A stretch of DNA of 28,310 bases, taken from positions 1 through 28,310 of the IMG/VR virus record IMGVR_UViG_3300043567_000392. One strand, written 5' to 3'. Of this stretch, positions 3,879 to 26,972 are shown one piece after another. Numbering within the stretch: position 1 is the first letter of the stretch; every line of letters begins with the position of its first letter. Origin of the DNA: a virus. The notes beneath the pieces were generated by a model. That model worked only from the letters and a program-made list of their open reading frames with translations. It was not told where the DNA came from and ran no database searches. The position numbers and the translations under genes were made by a program.

Positions 3879-6509
3879 TTATCTATTATAAGTCTTCAAA
3901 TTTATAACTATATCCTCAGCAACTCTTTGAGTTGGAGTATACATCTTTCTGTTTACAGCCATAATGGCTAGTCCAGAACTAATAGAGGCGTCAAATTTCG
4001 TTCTATTATTTATATCAAATTTCATCCAGTCTTTCAATGTATCGTTGAATAGTATGTTTTGAGGGATATCTCCATCTTCACTAATTATTCCGACATACTT
4101 CTCTATGTATGATTCAATAGCTGTTGCGTGCATTTGCTTAACATCTTCAGATGAGTTAGGCATACCGCCTAGTTCTTTCTCTGTTGGCGATAATCTATTC
4201 TCAGGCTTATCAAATCTAGTTATACTAAACCCTCTATACCCTCTATTCTTAAAGTGATATAAAAGTCTTGGTTTATTATTCTCTGCCAGTATAGGCATAC
4301 CATAAAATACACAAGCCATTAATACATCTTCAAAAAATATCTCTGCGGTCTTTGGTCTTGCTACATACTCTAAAAAGAATGTATTGTTTGGTGCATTTGA
4401 AAAACTAAGTCCTGTGAGTCCGTGTAAAGCACCCTTAGACGCTCTATTTGTATCCTCATCATAAGAACCATCTTTTCTAACACCCTCTACAGTTCCTGAT
4501 ATATCATATGTATCACAACCAAAGGATCCTATATCTCCATTCAAAGGGTGTTTTGAAATCCCTCCGAAGTTATTCTTCATCTCAAATTTGTTCCTCATCT
4601 CCTCTGGAGGAATCCAAGAAACCTTAAACCTACCCTTTTCATTTGGGTGCCACTCAACTATAGTATCTCTAATTCCATCTTTCCAATGGAAATTACCAGT
4701 TACTATTTTATTATCCGCATCGTGGTCTTCGTTAACCTTAATCTGTTCTAATATCTTCTCAATATTGAATGTTGACTGAAGAAGTTCATCTCTGAACGCT
4801 TCATCTATTGTCATTGGAAATGCTCTTAACTCTTCGTTGTAAGCAATATCGCTCTCTTTTCTTTTGCTACTTCTCTTTGCCTCTAAGAACTGAATACTAC
4901 CTACTGTCTTCTTGTCTCCGTGAACATTAATAAAATGATCTCCTTTTTCAACAAGCTCGTGACACACTCCGTATCTATCAGTAAACTCCTCCATATTCTT
5001 ATGAGCTGGCAAGAAGTAACAATATAAACCAGAAGGAGTTCTTCCAGTTATTGTATTCCTTTTACTTACTTTAGAGGATTTATATAATTTAAAAAATTCT
5101 TCACCTCCTTTATTCATAGCATTTACTGTCGATCCAATAAATGCCTTACCAACTACCTTACCACCTGTATCAAACGTAGGTGACACTTGGCCCCAGTGTT
5201 TCTCGTAGTTAGCTGGCCTTGTCCATTTAGATGCCTCATCACCTAAGTATCTATACATTCTTTGTCCGTCATAAGATGAATCTTTTGTTGGCTGATAATC
5301 TATAAATGTATTTAAGTAGTCATCTGTATTTGTATCTTTATTCTTTTTAAAACTTTTACTTCTATCTGTTGGTTTTGCAAACTCTAAGAAGTTCTTACTA
5401 TCCTCAGAACCCTTAACAACAGGCTTAAAGAAGAATGGTAAATTTAAATACCCGTATCTTAATTTTGAAAATGCCATCTTAGCATCTTCGTCTGATTTAG
5501 ATGTCATACCTATCCTTGCATTGGCAGTTGAAGTCGCATCATTTAATAACTGACATATAATCTGGTATGTAAAACCTGTACGTCTTGATTTAACGAATAA
5601 CTCACCTAAACATCTTGGATCTACAATACAAGCCTCTGTAAGATAAAACATATCTCTTTGAGCTGTTCTAAAATCCATATATGTACCTGTATCTTCCATC
5701 TTAACCCAGTTAAGTGCGAAGTAATGTGTTCCAGTTAGATATTCGGCCTTACCATTATTCATAAACCAAATACCCTCTCTTCTTCTTCTAAATTCCTCTA
5801 TTATGTATTCAGTGTATGATTCCGCATTATCTTGAGATAAACCCTTTGGAGGTTCTTGTCTTCTCCAGTACTGATCCTCTTTCTTTTCATTCCAAAATAA
5901 TATATCCTTTCTGTATGGAACTTTTGGTAGTGTAATAGTTAAGTCACCGACTTTCATTAAATCACCCTTAGTTCCTTTTGGATCTATCATTACTGAATCA
6001 TTATCTGAGTCGTACCATTCTTTATAGTAATTTTTTTTAGGTAAGAATTCACCAGTAGCAAATTTCTCAGGATAACCTCTCTTAAATTCATTTTCCTTTA
6101 AATTAATCTTATCTGCATCTATCTGCATTCTAAGTTCAATTAAAGATGAATCAATCTCTACAATCGCTTGATGTATTGATGGTTTAACCGATATAGCCAA
6201 ATGGTGTTTTGATGGATCTAAATCATCATAGTCTATCTTTGCTCTAAGAGCCTCTCTAAGTACGTTTAAGGCAATATCTCCAGCCTTAACTAGCCTTACT
6301 ACATATTTCTTAAATTTATCCTCAGATGGGGCGTTTGTGCTATTCTGCCACCTAAGAAGTAATTCCTTTCCGTACTTAAATGAATCAACCTTAGCTTTTA
6401 CGATTGTCTTTACCTTGTCTGGCTCAATCAAAGACATATCCGTGCCATACTCTAATCCTTCGATTACAGTTTCTACAGCAACTTCTATATCTCTACTTAG
6501 TCCAATCAT
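3879..6509 (-). CDS. Terminase large subunit (TerL), DNA-packaging ATPase and nuclease
   Basis: The 876-residue protein has both TerL domains. The ATPase contains a P-loop-like segment VKSRRTGFTY at 306-315, a Walker B strand ending in Asp-Glu at 424-425 (MYRYLGDEAS), and a coupling motif FIGSTV near 457-462. The RNase H-like nuclease domain shows Asp666 (GSFGCDTYD), Glu743 (MPILAEN) and Asp840 (RTKFDAS), the expected three acidic metal ligands. The P-loop is unusual: Phe313 stands where GKT/GKS has lysine, and a lysine lies five residues earlier at 307, so this protein may use a relocated P-loop lysine. A roughly 290-residue N-terminal extension precedes the ATPase, making the protein longer than most TerL (about 420-750 residues). 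Its start overlaps the stop of the GroES-like gene (ATGA-type, 4 bases), and portal follows after 5 bases. Confidence 0.93.
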   Translation of the reverse strand: MIGLSRDIEVAVETVIEGLEYGTDMSLIEPDKVKTIVKAKVDSFKYGKELLLRWQNSTNAPSEDKFKKYVVRLVKAGDIALNVLREALRAKIDYDDLDPSKHHLAISVKPSIHQAIVEIDSSLIELRMQIDADKINLKENEFKRGYPEKFATGEFLPKKNYYKEWYDSDNDSVMIDPKGTKGDLMKVGDLTITLPKVPYRKDILFWNEKKEDQYWRRQEPPKGLSQDNAESYTEYIIEEFRRRREGIWFMNNGKAEYLTGTHYFALNWVKMEDTGTYMDFRTAQRDMFYLTEACIVDPRCLGELFVKSRRTGFTYQIICQLLNDATSTANARIGMTSKSDEDAKMAFSKLRYGYLNLPFFFKPVVKGSEDSKNFLEFAKPTDRSKSFKKNKDTNTDDYLNTFIDYQPTKDSSYDGQRMYRYLGDEASKWTRPANYEKHWGQVSPTFDTGGKVVGKAFIGSTVNAMNKGGEEFFKLYKSSKVSKRNTITGRTPSGLYCYFLPAHKNMEEFTDRYGVCHELVEKGDHFINVHGDKKTVGSIQFLEAKRSSKRKESDIAYNEELRAFPMTIDEAFRDELLQSTFNIEKILEQIKVNEDHDADNKIVTGNFHWKDGIRDTIVEWHPNEKGRFKVSWIPPEEMRNKFEMKNNFGGISKHPLNGDIGSFGCDTYDISGTVEGVRKDGSYDEDTNRASKGALHGLTGLSFSNAPNNTFFLEYVARPKTAEIFFEDVLMACVFYGMPILAENNKPRLLYHFKNRGYRGFSITRFDKPENRLSPTEKELGGMPNSSEDVKQMHATAIESYIEKYVGIISEDGDIPQNILFNDTLKDWMKFDINNRTKFDASISSGLAIMAVNRKMYTPTQRVAEDIVINLKTYNR

Positions 6510-17936: not shown

Positions 17937-18401
17937 TTATTCTTTTATTTCGAAGTGCATCCAATCAAAATTCTTCTCTCTTCCTAATGATATAAATCCG
18001 TATTTGTAGAATATATCAATCATATCTTTATATTCAGGTCTTGCAAATCTAGCTGTCTTAGACGTCTCCTTTAATTTGTTTCTTCCTGGGTCTAGATCTA
18101 TAGCTACTCCCCAAGAATGCGTACTCCAATCGTTTCCGCCCCTCATCTTTCTAAAGTTAAAGCACCCTCCAAAAATATCTATTCCAAGCTCAACTATCTT
18201 TTTATATCCGTAAACCCTCATAAGTTCATTAAATACAGATAAAAAATTATCTGCAACTAATTTATGGCACCTCATCTTATGAACCTGAGTATCTAAATCC
18301 CAAGCTAACTTCATAGGATAAGGAAGATTTATTGTTACAAGATATCCTTCACCTGTAACATTTGGTTTTCCATATTTAGCTATCAGAGCCTTTGTTGTCA
18401 T
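17937..18401 (-). CDS. Endolysin: M15-family zinc peptidase (D-Ala-D-Ala carboxypeptidase type)
   Basis: 154 residues. The M15/VanY signature is intact: STHSWGVAID with His95 and Asp102 as zinc ligands, and FDWMHF with His149 as the third ligand and Asp146 as the likely general base. The protein would cut peptide cross-links or stem peptides in peptidoglycan. There is no signal peptide or membrane segment, so release should depend on a holin, and the next two genes upstream encode small membrane proteins. Its start lies inside the end of the upstream gene (26-base overlap), suggesting coupled translation. An alternative role as a virion-borne peptidase is less likely given this cassette. Confidence 0.85.
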   Translation of the reverse strand: MTTKALIAKYGKPNVTGEGYLVTINLPYPMKLAWDLDTQVHKMRCHKLVADNFLSVFNELMRVYGYKKIVELGIDIFGGCFNFRKMRGGNDWSTHSWGVAIDLDPGRNKLKETSKTARFARPEYKDMIDIFYKYGFISLGREKNFDWMHFEIKE

Positions 18402-18552
18402 TTTTATTCTTTATTAATTCAATGGTCTTCATAACCGTATAGATTATAGATGCGAATAAAAGAATTATCTTTAGTGCATTTTCTACATTAGTAAAGCTAA
18501 TAGCCATAACTACTGTATTTAATGTATATAATTTCAAATCGTTAATTGACAT
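18376..18552 (-). CDS. Small membrane protein in the lysis cassette (58 residues)
   Basis: The ATG at 18552 opens MSINDLKLYTLNTVVMAISF and the frame ends with TAA at 18376 (tail NKNDNKGSDS). Residues about 13-42 contain hydrophobic stretches (TVVMAISF, then LKIILLFASIIYTV), giving one long or two short membrane segments, followed by a charged tail. It overlaps the endolysin start by 26 bases and the holin-like gene end by 11, so all three are translationally linked. It may be a second holin, an antiholin or an inner-membrane spanin; the sequence does not decide among these. Confidence 0.65.
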   Translation of the reverse strand: MSINDLKLYTLNTVVMAISFTNVENALKIILLFASIIYTVMKTIELIKNKNDNKGSDS

Positions 18553-18742
18553 TTTTAGTTTTCATTAAACGTTCTACAATATTTGTAACTCCCTCAATAG
18601 TTATATAAGAAGTTCCAATAATAACCCAATCAGTAGAAGTAATAACCCCTGAGAATAAACCTGCGGAAGCTACAACAAACACTGTTAATTTTCTACTAAC
18701 CCACTTATTTAAGTAAAGGTCTATTTTTTCGTTTCTACTCAT
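18542..18742 (-). CDS. Holin-like small membrane protein
   Basis: 66 residues: a charged start (MSRNEKIDLYLNKWVSRK), a hydrophobic segment TVFVVASAGLFSGVI at about 20-34, a short turn (TSTDW), a second moderately hydrophobic segment (VIIGTSYITIEGVTNIV) and a basic end. The SRKxxVxVVAxxxxxxxxxxSxxWVIIxxxYI layout resembles holins found beside endolysins in many phages. It is encoded two genes ahead of the M15 endolysin. Function is assigned from topology and position. Confidence 0.65.
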   Translation of the reverse strand: MSRNEKIDLYLNKWVSRKLTVFVVASAGLFSGVITSTDWVIIGTSYITIEGVTNIVERLMKTKNVN

Positions 18743-18769
18743 TATGAATATATATTTTTTTAAAAGAAA

Positions 18770-19030
18770 TTACCATAATTTGGTACAAGCTAAATGTCTA
18801 GGTGTTCCAGGTTTAGCTGTATCGCAGTTGTGTCTTGCGTGAAAATTTTTCTTTCTTTTCGGATCTTTATGTTTTGTAAAATCTGAATAACCTTTAGCGC
18901 CTGCGTGAACTAAAGTTTCCTTTCCATTAACACAATACTTCTTCATTATTTTTTTACCTGGTCTAGTCGATTTTCTAACCTCACCACACTTCATACTAGC
19001 TTTTACTGAACCTGCCATAGATAAAATCAT
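18770..19030 (-). CDS. Small basic cysteine/histidine protein with a C-terminal FHARHNC motif
   Basis: Starting at the ATG at 19030 (MILSMAGSVKAS) the protein has 86 residues; ATG at 19018 is an alternative. An upstream TTG start is unlikely because it would lie inside the promoter word. The sequence is rich in Lys/Arg and has four cysteines and several histidines. The C-terminal half, with HAGAKGYSDF, KRKKNFHARHNCD and PGTPRHLACTKLW, belongs to a pattern (KxFRARHxC about 15 residues before a final C-x2-W-type end) widespread in cyanophages and large aquatic viruses with unknown function; a metal-binding fold is plausible. It is the first gene of the leftward lysis and fibre operon. Confidence 0.65.
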   Translation of the reverse strand: MILSMAGSVKASMKCGEVRKSTRPGKKIMKKYCVNGKETLVHAGAKGYSDFTKHKDPKRKKNFHARHNCDTAKPGTPRHLACTKLW

Positions 19031-19041
19031 TTTAATAAATC

Positions 19042-19077
19042 TTTGCAAAGATACGAAATAAAAAAAGTGTATATTTG
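19042..19077 (+). promoter_or_regulatory. Rightward promoter for groEL-groES
   Basis: A TTTG at 19042-19045 and TATATTTG at 19070-19077 match the Bacteroidota -33 and -7 elements; the 24-base spacing is longer than the usual 17-23. The -7 word lies 22 bases before the groEL ATG at 19100. The -33 element overlaps the leftward -7 word because CTTTGCAAAG at 19041-19050 is palindromic. Confidence 0.6.
19046..19053 (-). promoter_or_regulatory. Leftward promoter for the lysis and fibre operon
   Basis: The minus strand reads CGTATCTTTGC, an exact TAnnTTTG match identical over ten bases to sites at 7304 and 24468. A transcript starting a few bases downstream would reach the ATG at 19030 with a leader of roughly 10 bases. 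Nothing interrupts the operon clearly before 9376. Confidence 0.6.
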
Positions 19078-19099
19078 CATTATAAAAAATATAAATTTT

Positions 19100-20677
19100 A
19101 TGATAATTAAAGAAGTTAAATTTAATGAAAAGGCAAAAGAACCCTTGATTAAAGGGATATCTACTATTTGCGATGCTGTATCCTCAACTATGGGATATAG
19201 AGGTAGAACTGTGCTTATAGAGAGTCCAGGAGGACTTCCTATAGTTACAAAAGATGGTGTATCTGTAGCTGATTCCATTTTCTTAGAAGATGCTACCGAA
19301 AGTCTTGGTTGTGAGTTTGTGAAACAAGCTTGTAGAAAAACAGTTAATGAGGCTGGTGACGGAACAACTGGAACTGCTGTACTTACAAAATCAATTATTG
19401 ATAATAGTCAGAAATACCTAAAGAGTGGAGAATCTGCTATTGATTTAAAGAATGGTATTGAAAGTGGAGTTAAAGAGGTTGTTGAGTATATTAAAGAGAC
19501 ATCTAAAGAGGTTGATGATTCATACCTATTTGATGTAGCTAGAATATCAGCAAATAATGACTCTGAACTTGGAGAGATAATTGCAAATGCATTTATATCT
19601 GCTGGTAAGAATGGAGTTGTATCATATGAACAGTCTGATAATTCGGATACATATGTTGACTTTATTGACGGTATGCCAATTGCTAGAGGTTATGAGTTTG
19701 AAGGTTTTGTAAATAAACCCGAGAACAGAACTATTGAGTTTAATGGAAATCCATTGATCCTATTATCAAATAGAAGATTTCAAAATATTAGAGAGCTATT
19801 GCCTGTAGTAGAATACTGCCACAAAGTAAATAAAGAGTTGTTAATTATCTCTGAAATGGAGTTTGAGGTTATGAAGGTATTGTACGCCAACAAGAAGAAT
19901 GGCCTTAAGGTTGCAACAATTATTCCACCTAGTATTGGTGAGAAGAGGAGAGATTATTTAACCGATATTTCTTTAGCTACTGGAGGTTTGATTATAGACC
20001 TTGATACCTCTACAAATATCGATGGGTATGATATGGATGAGTTACTAGGTAAGTGTAGTAGACTTATTGTAACTAAAGACGATACTGTTCTATTCTTTAA
20101 TGAGAAACCTAATGCAGACAAAGTTCAATCAAAGATTGAAGAGTTAAACAAAGTAATAAAGAATTCTAACAACAATCTTGAGAAGGATTATCTTAAGGAT
20201 CGCATCTCTAAGCTTGCTTGTGGTGTTTCTGTGATTAAGGTTGGAGGAACAACAGAGGTTGAGATTAAGGAGAAGATTGATAGGGTTGATGACGCAATTA
20301 ACGCTGTTAAGAGTGCAATCTCTGAAGGTGTGGTTGTAGGAGGAGGATTAGCACTATATAACGCCTCTCTAAAGCTAGTTCCTACATCAAAAGGATATAA
20401 GTGCTTACTTGAGTCAATTCAAGCTCCTATGCGTACTATATTGAATAATGCAGGTGTATCTTTAAGTGATATTGAGGGAGATTTATTAACACACAAAGAT
20501 AATTACGGATACGATGTCAAGGATTATGAAATTGCAGATATGTTTGATAAGGGTATTATAGATCCATCAAAGGTTATTAGATTATCCTTAGAGAATGCTG
20601 CGAGTGTAGCTACAACAGTTTTATTAACAAACACAACCATAACACATAAGAGAAGCAATGAAGGTAGTTCTAAGTAA
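19100..20677 (+). CDS. groEL: Phage-encoded chaperonin GroEL (Hsp60), 525 residues
   Basis: The start at 19100 (MIIKEVKFNEKAKEPLIKG) aligns with the bacterial GroEL start; a TTG 57 bases earlier only adds promoter sequence. All three chaperonin domains are present. The ATP-site aspartates fall at the same numbers as in E. coli GroEL: Asp52 (KDGVSVAD), Asp87 (EAGDGTTGTA) and Asp398 (RVDDAI). ISEGVVVGGGLAL at 407-419 is the conserved equatorial loop, and FVNKPENRT with PLILLSNRRFQNIRELLPV belong to the apical domain. Differences: Gly91 replaces the usual Thr in GDGTTTAT, and the flexible GGM tail is missing (it ends NEGSSK). The gene overlaps groES by 20 bases. It likely refolds phage capsid or fibre proteins. 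Confidence 0.97.
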   Translation: MIIKEVKFNEKAKEPLIKGISTICDAVSSTMGYRGRTVLIESPGGLPIVTKDGVSVADSIFLEDATESLGCEFVKQACRKTVNEAGDGTTGTAVLTKSIIDNSQKYLKSGESAIDLKNGIESGVKEVVEYIKETSKEVDDSYLFDVARISANNDSELGEIIANAFISAGKNGVVSYEQSDNSDTYVDFIDGMPIARGYEFEGFVNKPENRTIEFNGNPLILLSNRRFQNIRELLPVVEYCHKVNKELLIISEMEFEVMKVLYANKKNGLKVATIIPPSIGEKRRDYLTDISLATGGLIIDLDTSTNIDGYDMDELLGKCSRLIVTKDDTVLFFNEKPNADKVQSKIEELNKVIKNSNNNLEKDYLKDRISKLACGVSVIKVGGTTEVEIKEKIDRVDDAINAVKSAISEGVVVGGGLALYNASLKLVPTSKGYKCLLESIQAPMRTILNNAGVSLSDIEGDLLTHKDNYGYDVKDYEIADMFDKGIIDPSKVIRLSLENAASVATTVLLTNTTITHKRSNEGSSK

Positions 20678-20909
20678 TATTTTAGTTAAAGAGATTAAAG
20701 AGGATGTAAAGACTAGCAGTGGTCTTTACTTAGGTGATGGTCAAGATGTCAAGTTTCACAGAGGTGAAGTAATTGAGATCGGGGAGAATGTAGATAAGGT
20801 TAATGTTGGCGAGACCATTTGGTTTGACAGGCATAGAACATATCCAATCAATTATCAAGGAGTTGAATATTTAGTTATGGGATACGAGAATGTAGTAATT
20901 GTAGAGTAA
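20658..20909 (+). CDS. groES: Phage-encoded co-chaperonin GroES, 83 residues
   Basis: The protein starts MKVVLSNILVKEIKED and keeps the GroES outline: a short mobile-loop region around residues 16-30 (DVKTSSGLYLGDGQD), GEVIEIGENVDKVNVGETIW at about 36-55, and a final strand GVEYLVMGYENVVIVE. The mobile loop, which docks GroES on GroEL through a hydrophobic tripeptide, here seems to use LYL after the Ser-Ser-Gly turn, where bacterial proteins have IVL. Length is slightly below bacterial GroES (about 95). It follows groEL, the reverse of the usual bacterial groES-groEL order, and starts inside the groEL end. A bidirectional terminator follows 8 bases after its stop. Confidence 0.9.
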   Translation: MKVVLSNILVKEIKEDVKTSSGLYLGDGQDVKFHRGEVIEIGENVDKVNVGETIWFDRHRTYPINYQGVEYLVMGYENVVIVE

Positions 20910-24700: not shown

Positions 24701-25552
24701 TTATTTATTTAGTTTACTCCAGTGCTTTGTAACTGTTGTTCTAGATACTCCAGACTTCTCTGCAACTGAATTTTTATTTATCCTATCGTTATTTAACTTC
24801 ATCTCATTAATTACATTTTGAAGTTCATTAACCTTCTCCTGTCTATTAATTTCATTCTTATTAATCATTAAGTCATAACCATCCCTTCGTATAATTCTAG
24901 ACACATACTCCTCGTAGTGTCTCTTTACGGTATTGAATGATATCTTGGTCCTATCTACAACCTCATTGATGTAGCACCTATCAATTCCACTCTTCTCCTC
25001 ATTTATTATTTTAATAGTTTCAATTATCAAATCTTTCTTACCCATACTCTTTATTTTATTTAAAAATGTTAGTGCCTCCCTTTGTTTCTTCTTTGACTTA
25101 AAGTCTGATATGTATTTATCTCTCTTTGATTGCGGTAATGAATTGTACTCCATCTCTTCCTCTTCACTCATTCTAAATAATTCACTTAGATCATACTTCC
25201 ATAGTATCTTCTTCTGTTCGTAAATCATATCTAGCATCTCTTGATTGAATTCTTCCTTGAAGCAATTCTCAGCTACAGAGTAAACATCATACTCAGATAC
25301 ATATATCCCCTTATTCATTTTAGTCTTCTTGATTATAGACAATCCCTCATCAACAACCTGTCCTAATCCAATACCATCATTCAAGTACATTAGTTTATAG
25401 AAGAATGATTCTAGTGAACGCAGTGCCGAACCTCTACTGTAGTTAATACCAACATACCTTGCATCTACACAAGTATATCCATCTGGATAATACCAAAAGA
25501 AGTTAGTCTCTATCGGGTCTTTGGTTTTATTTATTATTCTGTAGTAATTCAT
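24701..25552 (-). CDS. Probable DNA-binding protein with two C-terminal helix-turn-helix motifs
   Basis: 283 residues from the ATG at 25552 (MNYYRIINKTKDPIETNF); a TTG 9 bases earlier overlaps the promoter word and is unlikely. Residues about 1-150 are a mixed domain I do not recognise, with aromatic and Asp/Glu-rich stretches. The C-terminal half carries two HTH-like units: CYINEVVDRTKISFNTVKRH at about 206-225 and SVAEKSGVSRTTVTKHWSKL near the end, separated by a helical linker. The second looks like a recognition helix of the AraC/HxlR or plasmid-Rep sort. Its position beside the 1.2-kb gene-free region makes it a candidate regulator or replication initiator that binds there. No nuclease or ATPase motif is seen. 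Confidence 0.65.
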   Translation of the reverse strand: MNYYRIINKTKDPIETNFFWYYPDGYTCVDARYVGINYSRGSALRSLESFFYKLMYLNDGIGLGQVVDEGLSIIKKTKMNKGIYVSEYDVYSVAENCFKEEFNQEMLDMIYEQKKILWKYDLSELFRMSEEEEMEYNSLPQSKRDKYISDFKSKKKQREALTFLNKIKSMGKKDLIIETIKIINEEKSGIDRCYINEVVDRTKISFNTVKRHYEEYVSRIIRRDGYDLMINKNEINRQEKVNELQNVINEMKLNNDRINKNSVAEKSGVSRTTVTKHWSKLNK

Positions 25553-25558
25553 ATACTG

Positions 25559-25585
25559 CAAATATATAAAAAATATGTATACAAA
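25559..25585 (-). promoter_or_regulatory. Leftward promoter for the two-HTH gene
   Basis: The minus strand has TTTTG at about 25581-25585 and TATATTTGC ending at 25558, separated by about 15 bases (shorter than the usual 17-23). A start point near 25554 would make the transcript almost leaderless relative to the ATG at 25552. A TAGTTTTG word (25582-25589) may be a second overlapping -7 site. Confidence 0.5.
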
Positions 25586-25589
25586 ACTA

Positions 25590-26253
25590 CTAACCTATAT
25601 ACATTATGTGAAAAGTGTACATACCTATTCAATCCATCCTTTTATATATACGGATGTTAATGGTGTGTACAGTTTTATATATCTACACTTCAATCTCTAT
25701 ATCTCTGTGTGAGATACAACGAGATTTTCGTTTCATATTCTTTGGACTTAATTGTATTAATGGGGTTCTACCCCCACATAACGATCTACACCTCTCTTCC
25801 CAAAACCAAATTCATAAGCATACGGGGGTTACTTTCGAATTGACCCTCTCCAAACTTTTACCCTTTTACCCTGGTATTGTGTATAACCTAAACCCTTAAC
25901 CTACGTTTCACGATAGCAACCTATTAAAACTTTGTACATCGATAACCCTTTGGTATTTTTTAATTGAAGAGAGAGGCCTTTATTGGCGCGGGATACCCAC
26001 TAAAAACCTATAGAGAAAAACCAATTTAACAACGATATACAAAACACGATATATCTTTTGAGGTTACATTATACCTTTTATTAATACATAATACATTCAT
26101 ATACATATGTTTATGCACTACATTTTTATGATTATAAATACTTTTACCTCTAATGTATAGTATCTAATTTAGGGTAATTATGCAATAAATGTGCATTTCA
26201 ACGATTTTTCGTGCAGTTCATCGATTTTATTTTTATATTTAGATAACTTGTTG
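25590..26253. other. Gene-free, A/T-rich divergence region (origin or control region candidate)
   Basis: No supportable gene occurs in these 660 bases; the only sizeable frame (25615-25899, plus) has no fitting start context and no recognisable protein features. The left half (about 25740-25920) is C-rich and G-poor on the plus strand and contains short C-runs and a tandem TTTTACCC pair (25856-25871). The middle (26041-26110) is A/T-rich with three ATACAT words (26084, 26091, 26101). The right end carries the 20-bp direct repeat. It lies between a leftward and a rightward promoter, as do many phage origins and genetic switches. Function is not established. Confidence 0.45.
26191..26228 (+). 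repeat. Direct repeat with 20-bp period upstream of the rightward early promoter
   Basis: GTGCATTTCAACGATTTT (26191-26208) is followed by GTGCAGTTCATCGATTTT (26211-26228): 16 of 18 bases agree and the units start exactly 20 bp apart, so they lie on nearly the same face of the helix. The -7 word begins 25 bases after the second unit. The pattern fits a dimeric activator or repressor site at about -35 to -75, or a pair of iterons. Confidence 0.65.
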
Positions 26254-26261
26254 TAAGTTTG
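26254..26261 (+). promoter_or_regulatory. Predicted rightward early promoter, -7 element
   Basis: TAAGTTTG matches TAnnTTTG. No good -33 TTG is found 17-23 bases upstream, where the second direct repeat ends, which would fit a promoter needing an activator. It is the only clean plus-strand -7 word upstream of the small-gene run starting at 26719. Confidence 0.5.
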
Positions 26262-26267
26262 TCTTGT

Positions 26268-26718
26268 CAAAATGAAACAACGTTCTTTAATAATCTGACA
26301 CAATAACCAAAGCATACATAGACTAAATGATCAGTCAGTATGTTAAGGTAAGCACCCAAGTATTGTAAGGTAGTTGCTCACACGTTACGCATAGCAGTAT
26401 GGTAGACAAGCCGATAAGATAGCAAGTGTTAAAAAGTGTTAAAGTTCTTGCATAAGAAAAAAAGTAGTTGTTACTTTGTCAAAGAATTACAAACGAGTTC
26501 ATTGAAATATTGAGAAACAAGTTAATAGGAGTGAATCTTCCTCAAAGCGTCAAGGCGTGAGTTAGCACCCTGGAGAGGTTAACGAATAAGTTGTATTAGT
26601 ACTATCTTGCAACTTTAAATAACGAATGTACATAAAAAATTATCGGTAGGTCAAATAGTTGTTGACTATATGTGAGCGAAACACACTACCGAATCTAACA
26701 ATTTAAATTTATTTTATT
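26268..26718 (+). ncRNA. Long untranslated leader with boxA-like words and short hairpins
   Basis: About 450 bases between the predicted start of transcription and the first small gene contain no convincing coding frame. Composition changes here: more G and a purine-rich plus strand compared with the region to the left. Two words resemble rRNA-leader boxA elements: CGTTCTTTAATAATCTGACA (26281-26300), close to E. coli rrn TGCTCTTTAACA, and GTTCATTGAAATATTGAG (26497-26514), close to the GTTCTTTGACATATTG word of Bacteroidota rRNA leaders. Hairpin candidates are GCAAG/CTTGC (26422-26426 with 26447-26451) and the fold at 26643. A processive antitermination leader or a separate small RNA are the leading readings; both are inference. 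Confidence 0.4.
26643..26692 (+). ncRNA. Three-way-junction RNA fold just before the first early gene
   Basis: Three perfect helices nest in 50 bases. P1: TCGGTAG (26643-26649) with CTACCGA (26686-26692). P2: GTCAA (26650-26654) with TTGAC (26662-26666), loop ATAGTTG. P3: TGTG (26671-26674) with CACA (26682-26685), loop AGCGAAA. P1 abuts P2 and P3 with no unpaired bases; only TATA lies between P2 and P3. It ends 26 bases before the ATG at 26719, so it may be a riboregulator, processing site or the 3' end of the leader RNA. It lacks tRNA, hammerhead or known riboswitch consensus bases that I can recognise. Confidence 0.5.
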
Positions 26719-26817
26719 ATGAAAGATGATGATAAACAAGAAATTTTAGGTACAATATTAGGGATAATAATATGTTTTTCCCCTTTTATTATTAGCTATT
26801 TTACAGGATTATTTTAA
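26719..26817 (+). CDS. 32-residue predicted membrane peptide, first early gene
   Basis: ATG at 26719, TAA at 26815-26817. A short acidic/basic head (MKDDDKQE) is followed by one hydrophobic stretch (ILGTILGIIICFSPFIIS) and a YFTGLF end, so a single membrane helix is likely. It starts in TTATTATGA, the same context as the following small genes, and its stop is followed by the next gene within 29 bases. Short membrane peptides early in a phage genome may alter the host envelope, but nothing here shows its role. Confidence 0.5.
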   Translation: MKDDDKQEILGTILGIIICFSPFIISYFTGLF

Positions 26818-26846
26818 ACTTTATTTATTTTTAAACTTTATTTATT
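26815..26846 (+). repeat. Perfect 15-bp direct repeat ahead of the second early gene
   Basis: TAAACTTTATTTATT occurs at 26815-26829 and 26832-26846, 17 bp apart. The first copy contains the stop codon of the upstream peptide and the second runs into the ATG at 26847. It looks like a duplicated gene junction. Confidence 0.8.
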
Positions 26847-26972
26847 ATGAAAGCAATCGGAATTTGCAACAGAACAGAAACAGAAGTATTTCCTACTACT
26901 GTTAAAGGTTATTCAGCATATTGTCCAGAATTGGACGAGGATTTATACGATTTTGAATGGACTAAAATTTAA
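26847..26972 (+). CDS. 41-residue early protein of unknown function
   Basis: ATG at 26847, TAA at 26970-26972: MKAIGICNRTETEVFPTTVK, then GYSAYCPELDEDLYDFEWTKI. Two cysteines and an acidic C-terminal half, no membrane segment. The start is in TTATTATGA and the gene ends 5 bases before the next ATG. It is not recognised; regular spacing and start context support it being real. Confidence 0.55.
   Translation: MKAIGICNRTETEVFPTTVKGYSAYCPELDEDLYDFEWTKI

Follow-up and report, generated by a model that had tools for sequence, protein, structure and literature searches.

A probable divergent control region with a putative rRNA-type boxA leader in an Elemovirus-like phage

Introduction

What does a phage keep in a gene-free stretch of some 1.2 kb at the point where its leftward and rightward transcription units part? 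We asked this of a 28,310-base stretch of DNA, one virus record, which we call the window. Its nearest named relatives by megablast are the Elemovirus phages of Flavobacterium sp. BAL314, the top match having about 81% identity over 40% of the query, and 68 of the 69 matching phage records are Flavobacterium phages. By this similarity, the window is a fragment of an Elemovirus relative. The original prediction held that the gap, with its two differently composed halves, fits either a replication origin or a regulatory switch. The reading that we favor, at a probability of roughly two in three, is that it is a divergent control region with a boxA-type antitermination leader, which is later cut off or capped. 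Within this reading, we infer antitermination, ribozyme cutting and binding by the HTH protein.

Results

The gap is real and non-coding, as predicted, and extends from the HTH ORF on its left to the first accepted rightward ORF at 26720 (26720..26818, plus strand), whose 32-aa product reads by eye as hydrophobic. The corresponding two units in the Elemovirus genomes (hereafter elemo) are also parted by a gap, of about 1.1 kb, which in the elemoE record lies at 18084-19186. The longest ORF within the window's gap has 94 aa and a GTG start at 25615; we rejected it as a coding gene, as tblastn against L003 and L012 crosses stop codons and reveals no conserved frame. Rfam searches of the gap and of the whole window returned weak matches alone, all below gathering scores. 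Among the contigs compared, L003 has a sequence that stops within the left half, and L020-L023 share the promoter pattern as their sole feature.

The two halves do differ in base composition, with a GC skew of -0.217 on the left (25553-26230; C 129, G 83) and +0.134 on the right (26231-26719). Each half matches its neighboring gene block, however, these having skews of -0.225 and +0.149, respectively. A skew extremum, proposed as a check for an origin, is present in the whole elemoE record, where the cumulative GC skew reaches its minimum at 18794, inside the homologous gap, but it is explained by gene strand. That skew tracks gene strand is seen from the elemoE groES/groEL block, which is reversed within the late region and has a skew of -0.297 amid values of about +0.2. 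Since skew follows gene direction in both the window phage and elemoE, it tells nothing about an origin, and we rejected it as origin evidence. The window phage likewise encodes groEL and groES (19043-20909, plus strand) opposite to the surrounding late genes, as in elemo.

Across the left half, which we aligned on the minus strand too, 366 of 536 positions are identical between the window and elemoE, and a C-rich core at 25821..25872 is conserved in six sequences. The C-runs that had been noted there are present, but a plus-strand G-run accompanies them (25824-25828). The tandem TTTTACCC pair likewise exists, at 25856-25871, but the exact tandem is not conserved, because five relatives read TTTTAGCCTTTTACCC or TTTTTACCTTTTTAGCC at that site.

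The first leftward gene (24701..25552, minus strand) encodes a protein with a Pfam HTH_24 match of 22.1 bits against a cut-off of 21.9. Its ORF as listed spans 24701-25561 from a TTG start, and an ATG at 25552-25550 is the likelier one. The protein is 83% identical to that of L003, 75% to that of L007 and 26% to that of elemo. Flavobacterial sigma-A promoters have been described as carrying the -7 box TAnnTTTG (PMC9723704). One such leftward box, TATATTTG (25559..25566, minus strand), is followed by the ATG after 6 bases, and a second, TAGTTTTG, lies at 25582-25589 on the same strand. Six of eight loci have a box 4-7 bases before an ATG, the distances in L015 and L017 being +24 and +27. Because TATATTTG sits so close to the ATG, the HTH mRNA probably has almost no leader, and the left half, about 660 bases that separate the two promoter sets, would not serve as one.

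An imperfect dyad found by eye, GTGTACATACC...GGTGTGTACA (25613..25677), is a candidate operator of the HTH protein. Also by eye, the dyad was seen in all three loci with the window's HTH type (window, L003 and L007, the last with one matched change) and was not seen in three others (L012, L014 and elemoE). The L012 gap looks mosaic in sequence, with a junction at L012:5235-5400, being elemo-like by the HTH gene and window-like beyond. In L009, the place of the window and elemo HTH genes is taken by a third, different protein of 299 aa (L009:6767-7666), and the early leader adjoining this gene is nearly identical to that of elemo; going by these sequences, the module beside the leader is swapped.

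To the right, the prediction of a transcribed leader is supported by promoter boxes and by leader RNAs with compensatory changes. The -7 box of the first putative promoter, P1, is TAAGTTTG (26254..26261, plus strand), the sole exact plus-strand TAnnTTTG within 25400-26900. Upstream of it stand two 13-bp direct repeats, 20 bp apart (26193..26225); the pair recurs in L015 and L018 and was not found in L012, L016 or L017. The second putative promoter, P2 (26424..26478, plus strand), comprises an GTTAAAAAGTGTTAAAGTT repeat, a TTG at 26448-26450 and, with the TTG 20 bases upstream of it, a -7 box TTACTTTG at 26471-26478. This box is imperfect in that the consensus A is missing, which we count against our best explanation. 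GTTAAAAAGTGTTAAAGTT precedes both elemo boxes, once with an extra A.

Leader 1 RNA (26266..26430, plus strand) consists of a start region, a hairpin (26306-26349) and an 80-nt domain (26351-26430), and is common to the window, elemoE, L013 and L014. Between the window and elemoE, the domain is identical at 73 of 80 positions; six of the seven differing columns make up three compensatory pair swaps and the seventh lies in the apical loop. Over the 35 counted pairs all 140 of 140 cells pair, in a structure derived from the same four sequences, in effect two groups. Both bases have changed in six pairs, whereas shuffles average 1.4 such pairs (0 of 500 shuffles as high), and slid structures are 29-45% paired. 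These counts leave out 12 of the 47 RNAalifold pairs (helices at columns 11-30 and 41-192), one of which has a double change and a break. The modeled fold of hairpin and 80-nt domain is supported by its compensatory changes. Folding energies of the leader stretches were not unusual (z -0.11, -0.27 and -0.20), and this, like the small number of sequence groups behind the covariation, we count against our best explanation.

Leader 2 is predicted to open with a 16-nt motif, GTTCATTGAAATATTG (26497..26512, plus strand), which stands 18 nt after the imperfect P2 box, the box that would set the transcript's start. Allowing up to one mismatch, this is the one match in the window, where 0.01 are expected. 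The early leader of L012 (also L011) carries GTTCCTTGAAATATTG and that of L016 GTTCATTGACATATTG; at up to three substitutions, no match was found in the early leaders of elemo, L007, L009, L015, L017, L018 or L019. When the pairs L008/L010, L007/L013, L009/L014 and L011/L012 are each counted once, the motif is found in 3 of 10 distinct early leaders (window, L012 and L016) and is not general to this related group, a recount that weighs against the boxA-leader reading. Leader 2 of the window had no match in two exact scans of viral contigs. In elemo, L013, L014 and L017, leader 2 RNA has a separate predicted fold, in which 7 of 38 pairs show double changes and 5 of 38 are broken in one sequence.

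We then turned to where else the motif occurs. A scan of genomes with the pattern GTTCWTTGAMATATTGA(N)AA hit at least 117 stretches, and 80 of the 119 matches among those listed fall in rRNA operons, 73 at the 16S-23S spacer and seven before 16S. All rRNA-labelled records carry titles that we take to be those of Bacteroidota. For the spacer matches listed, a 23S start was found in 71 of 73, 73-254 nt on; the matches listed before 16S lie 89-190 nt ahead of it. Both of the listed Flavobacterium tibetense matches, GTTCATTGACATATTGAGAA, lie 132 nt before 23S. The other 39 of the 119 listed are near no rRNA landmark, which we also count against our best explanation. In E. coli, boxA is described as occurring both downstream of rrn P2 and ahead of 23S, and as necessary and sufficient to recruit antitermination factors (PMC10250234). 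Because of its position in rRNA operons, we read the Bacteroidota motif, by analogy, as a putative boxA.

In viral contigs, taken irrespective of host, the motif matched at least 119 stretches, and of the 120 matches among those listed (one of which, L172, is the L012 contig itself) 70 are non-coding, that is, outside ATG-started ORFs of at least 60 aa on either strand, compared with 21.6% of bases (p 2.7e-18). The reversed motif, scanned likewise as a control (at least 120 stretches), gave 5 non-coding among 120 listed matches (Fisher p 1e-21), on a non-coding background that differs from that of the motif set, at 8.3% versus 21.6% of bases. This control weighs in favor of the boxA-leader reading. 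Of the 70 listed non-coding matches, counting every one, 48 are followed by an ORF on the same strand and 14 by one on the opposite strand, and eight have no next ORF. Sixteen of the 70 have a TAnnTTTG box at most 60 nt upstream and 0 have one on the mirror side, and in 10 a word resembling a tRNA T-arm lies no more than 80 nt upstream; for the box and the T-arm-like word, the reversed-motif control gave 0 of 5. The motif follows T-arm-like words closely in, for example, L193, L195 and L184, which suggests that phage tRNA operons use the rRNA-type motif too. L017, for its part, has a tmRNA gene in a viral contig (L017:13210-13572; Rfam E 6.4e-37), with a tRNA just before it. L145, a contig with no known relation to this phage, carries a promoter box, followed by the motif and two hammerhead-like sequences, in an early-looking leader and spacer at 4200-5100; the first hammerhead-like sequence is at 4461 (model E 0.12) and the second at 5018-5074 (Rfam E 0.18).

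A type III hammerhead stands immediately ahead of the first early gene in 7 of the 10 distinct leaders (elemo, L013, L014, L012, L015, L017 and L018), L012 being the sole leader of the 10 with both motif and hammerhead. The class rests on the core, three helices and covariation over seven distinct sequences: 12 of 17 pairs show double changes, and 98.3% of 119 cells are paired, against a shuffled mean of 73.8% and 33-43% in slid structures. The 16 further pair types were not above shuffles (155 of 500 as high). By Rfam, the L012 hammerhead is the sole one above the gathering score (49.6 versus 48.5 bits, E 6.3e-8); that of L008 falls below (36.3 bits, E 1.3e-4), that of L015 is weakly matched, as type I, and those of L007, L009, L013, L014, L017, L018 and the 47-kb L001 are missed. 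Searched at E 10 with a model built from the seven hammerheads, the window, L016, L019-L023 and L148 gave no match. A loose hammerhead pattern also matches elsewhere, for instance at three places in the window, and these matches were left uncounted. A second hammerhead-like sequence lies between early genes at L010:7419, L013:7418, L014:7412, L001:32576 and L015:5707, that is, downstream in elemo, L013, L014 and L015, with an Rfam E of 0.6 for L008; the corresponding spacer of the window lacks one. The second sequence gives a hint that the early mRNA is cut at more than one place.

At the place of its relatives' hammerheads, the window has the terminal hairpin of leader 2 (26643..26692, plus strand). 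Only 1 of 200 shuffles of 26630-26700 is as stable. We rejected this hairpin as a hammerhead: it has no CUGANGA core and no stem II, and with model R1 and filters off, 26643-26692 was not among the 12 matches. It does keep GUC, a stem, GAAAC and an outer helix, ordered much as in a hammerhead, a layout that was defined after seeing the window hairpin and is reached by 12 of 3000 shuffles. The hairpin may be a decayed hammerhead or unrelated to one.

Discussion

We propose that this region of an Elemovirus-like phage is a divergent control region. A leftward promoter beside the HTH gene would give a nearly leaderless mRNA, with the upstream dyad probably serving for autoregulation of the gene. 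In the other direction, the early operon would start from two tandem promoters read by the host polymerase, each transcript opening with a leader RNA: leader 1 is predicted to fold into the hairpin and 80-nt domain, and leader 2 would open with the motif that Bacteroidota keep before 23S and 16S rRNA genes. Leader 2 RNA would recruit the host NusB-S10 antitermination complex, and polymerase could then pass Rho-dependent and other terminators along the early operon. In most relatives examined, the type III hammerhead at the leader's end, next to the first gene, presumably cuts there, which would leave an mRNA with a 5'-hydroxyl that starts with a hairpin; in the window phage, a plain hairpin takes the hammerhead's place.

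Of the two functions first suggested for the gap, the regulatory one has gained from the boxes, the dyad seen by eye with the window's HTH type and the compensatory leader changes, and the origin has gained no positive support. The original prediction had overlooked the rRNA-type motif and had not covered the hammerheads, which lie in relatives that it did not include. That the left half or the whole gap is nonetheless a replication origin, with the core at 25821-25872 as initiator or unwinding site, we hold to be very doubtful: the elemoE skew extremum does fall at the gap, and the core is conserved, non-coding and without any other explanation, but skew tracks gene strand, the tandem TTTTACCC is not conserved, and no initiator gene was found close to the gap, the annotated replication initiation gene of elemoE being about 9 kb off and the window ending before it. 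If the HTH protein chose between the two directions, as in an immunity-type genetic switch, this would account for the location of its gene at the divergence point, for a dyad that, by eye, goes with HTH type and for the direct repeats upstream of P1. Such a switch is nevertheless a rather unlikely alternative, given few loci and a leftward unit that contains structural and terminase genes, and for this latter reason is more like late-gene or early/late control.

Two further explanations concern the leaders themselves. They could be stand-alone regulatory RNAs, acting for example on host RNA or protein, with the hammerhead or hairpin forming the 3' end. The leader 1 domain is indeed more conserved (73/80) than groEL DNA (1302 of 1561 positions identical between the window and elemoE) or the left half, and leader modules vary between phages, but this explanation, which we judge improbable, leaves the rRNA-type motif of leader 2 unaccounted for. 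The match to boxA could instead be coincidental or mark something else, such as RNA processing or a protein site on DNA. The seven leaders without the motif and the listed genome matches away from rRNA genes favor this, as does the fact that binding of antitermination factors to the motif is our inference; set against it are the 0.01 matches expected in the window and the scarcity of non-coding matches to the reversed motif among those listed, and we think it unlikely. A control region with a boxA-type leader stays the most likely reading.

More broadly, and in a tentative extension to which we give slightly less than even odds, many Bacteroidota phages may place a host rRNA-type boxA in operon leaders (and behind some tRNA genes); the Nus factors of the host would then keep polymerase going with no need of an antiterminator protein from the phage. 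The Elemovirus-like leader would then be a modular cassette that also holds a folded RNA domain and may end in a hammerhead severing leader from mRNA, a self-processing imitation of the rRNA operon leader. If so, this would be a general early-transcription strategy in Bacteroidota phages, analogous to lambda nut and borrowed from host rRNA operons, and phage hammerheads would gain a function open to testing, namely removal of an antitermination leader from the early mRNA. Among titles and abstract openings, with subscription journals thinly covered, no paper was recognizable that dealt with boxA in phages of Bacteroidota or with early-leader hammerheads in these phages.

Several known systems bear comparison with this locus. 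The relatives' hammerheads share core, three helices and NUH site with the type III hammerhead (RF00008). Hammerheads have been reported in phage intergenic regions (PMC3088659); what sets those of the relatives apart is their place, closing an early leader and directly adjoining the first gene, and the window is without one. With the boxA leaders of rRNA operons (NusA, NusB, S10, NusG, SuhB) the window has in common the 16-nt motif found before Bacteroidota 23S and 16S, at the same two places as are described for E. coli boxA (PMC10250234). It differs from them in that the operon is an early phage operon, the signal is a predicted one, and no boxB or boxC was identified. A boxA-type signal in the leader of a phage's early operon also recalls lambda nut. 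Lambda nut sites work through boxA, boxB and the N protein, whereas the window motif is of the rRNA type. HK022 put RNA, finally, is a structured leader RNA that needs no phage protein, and leader 1, likened to it by description, might likewise be a structured leader RNA that works without one.
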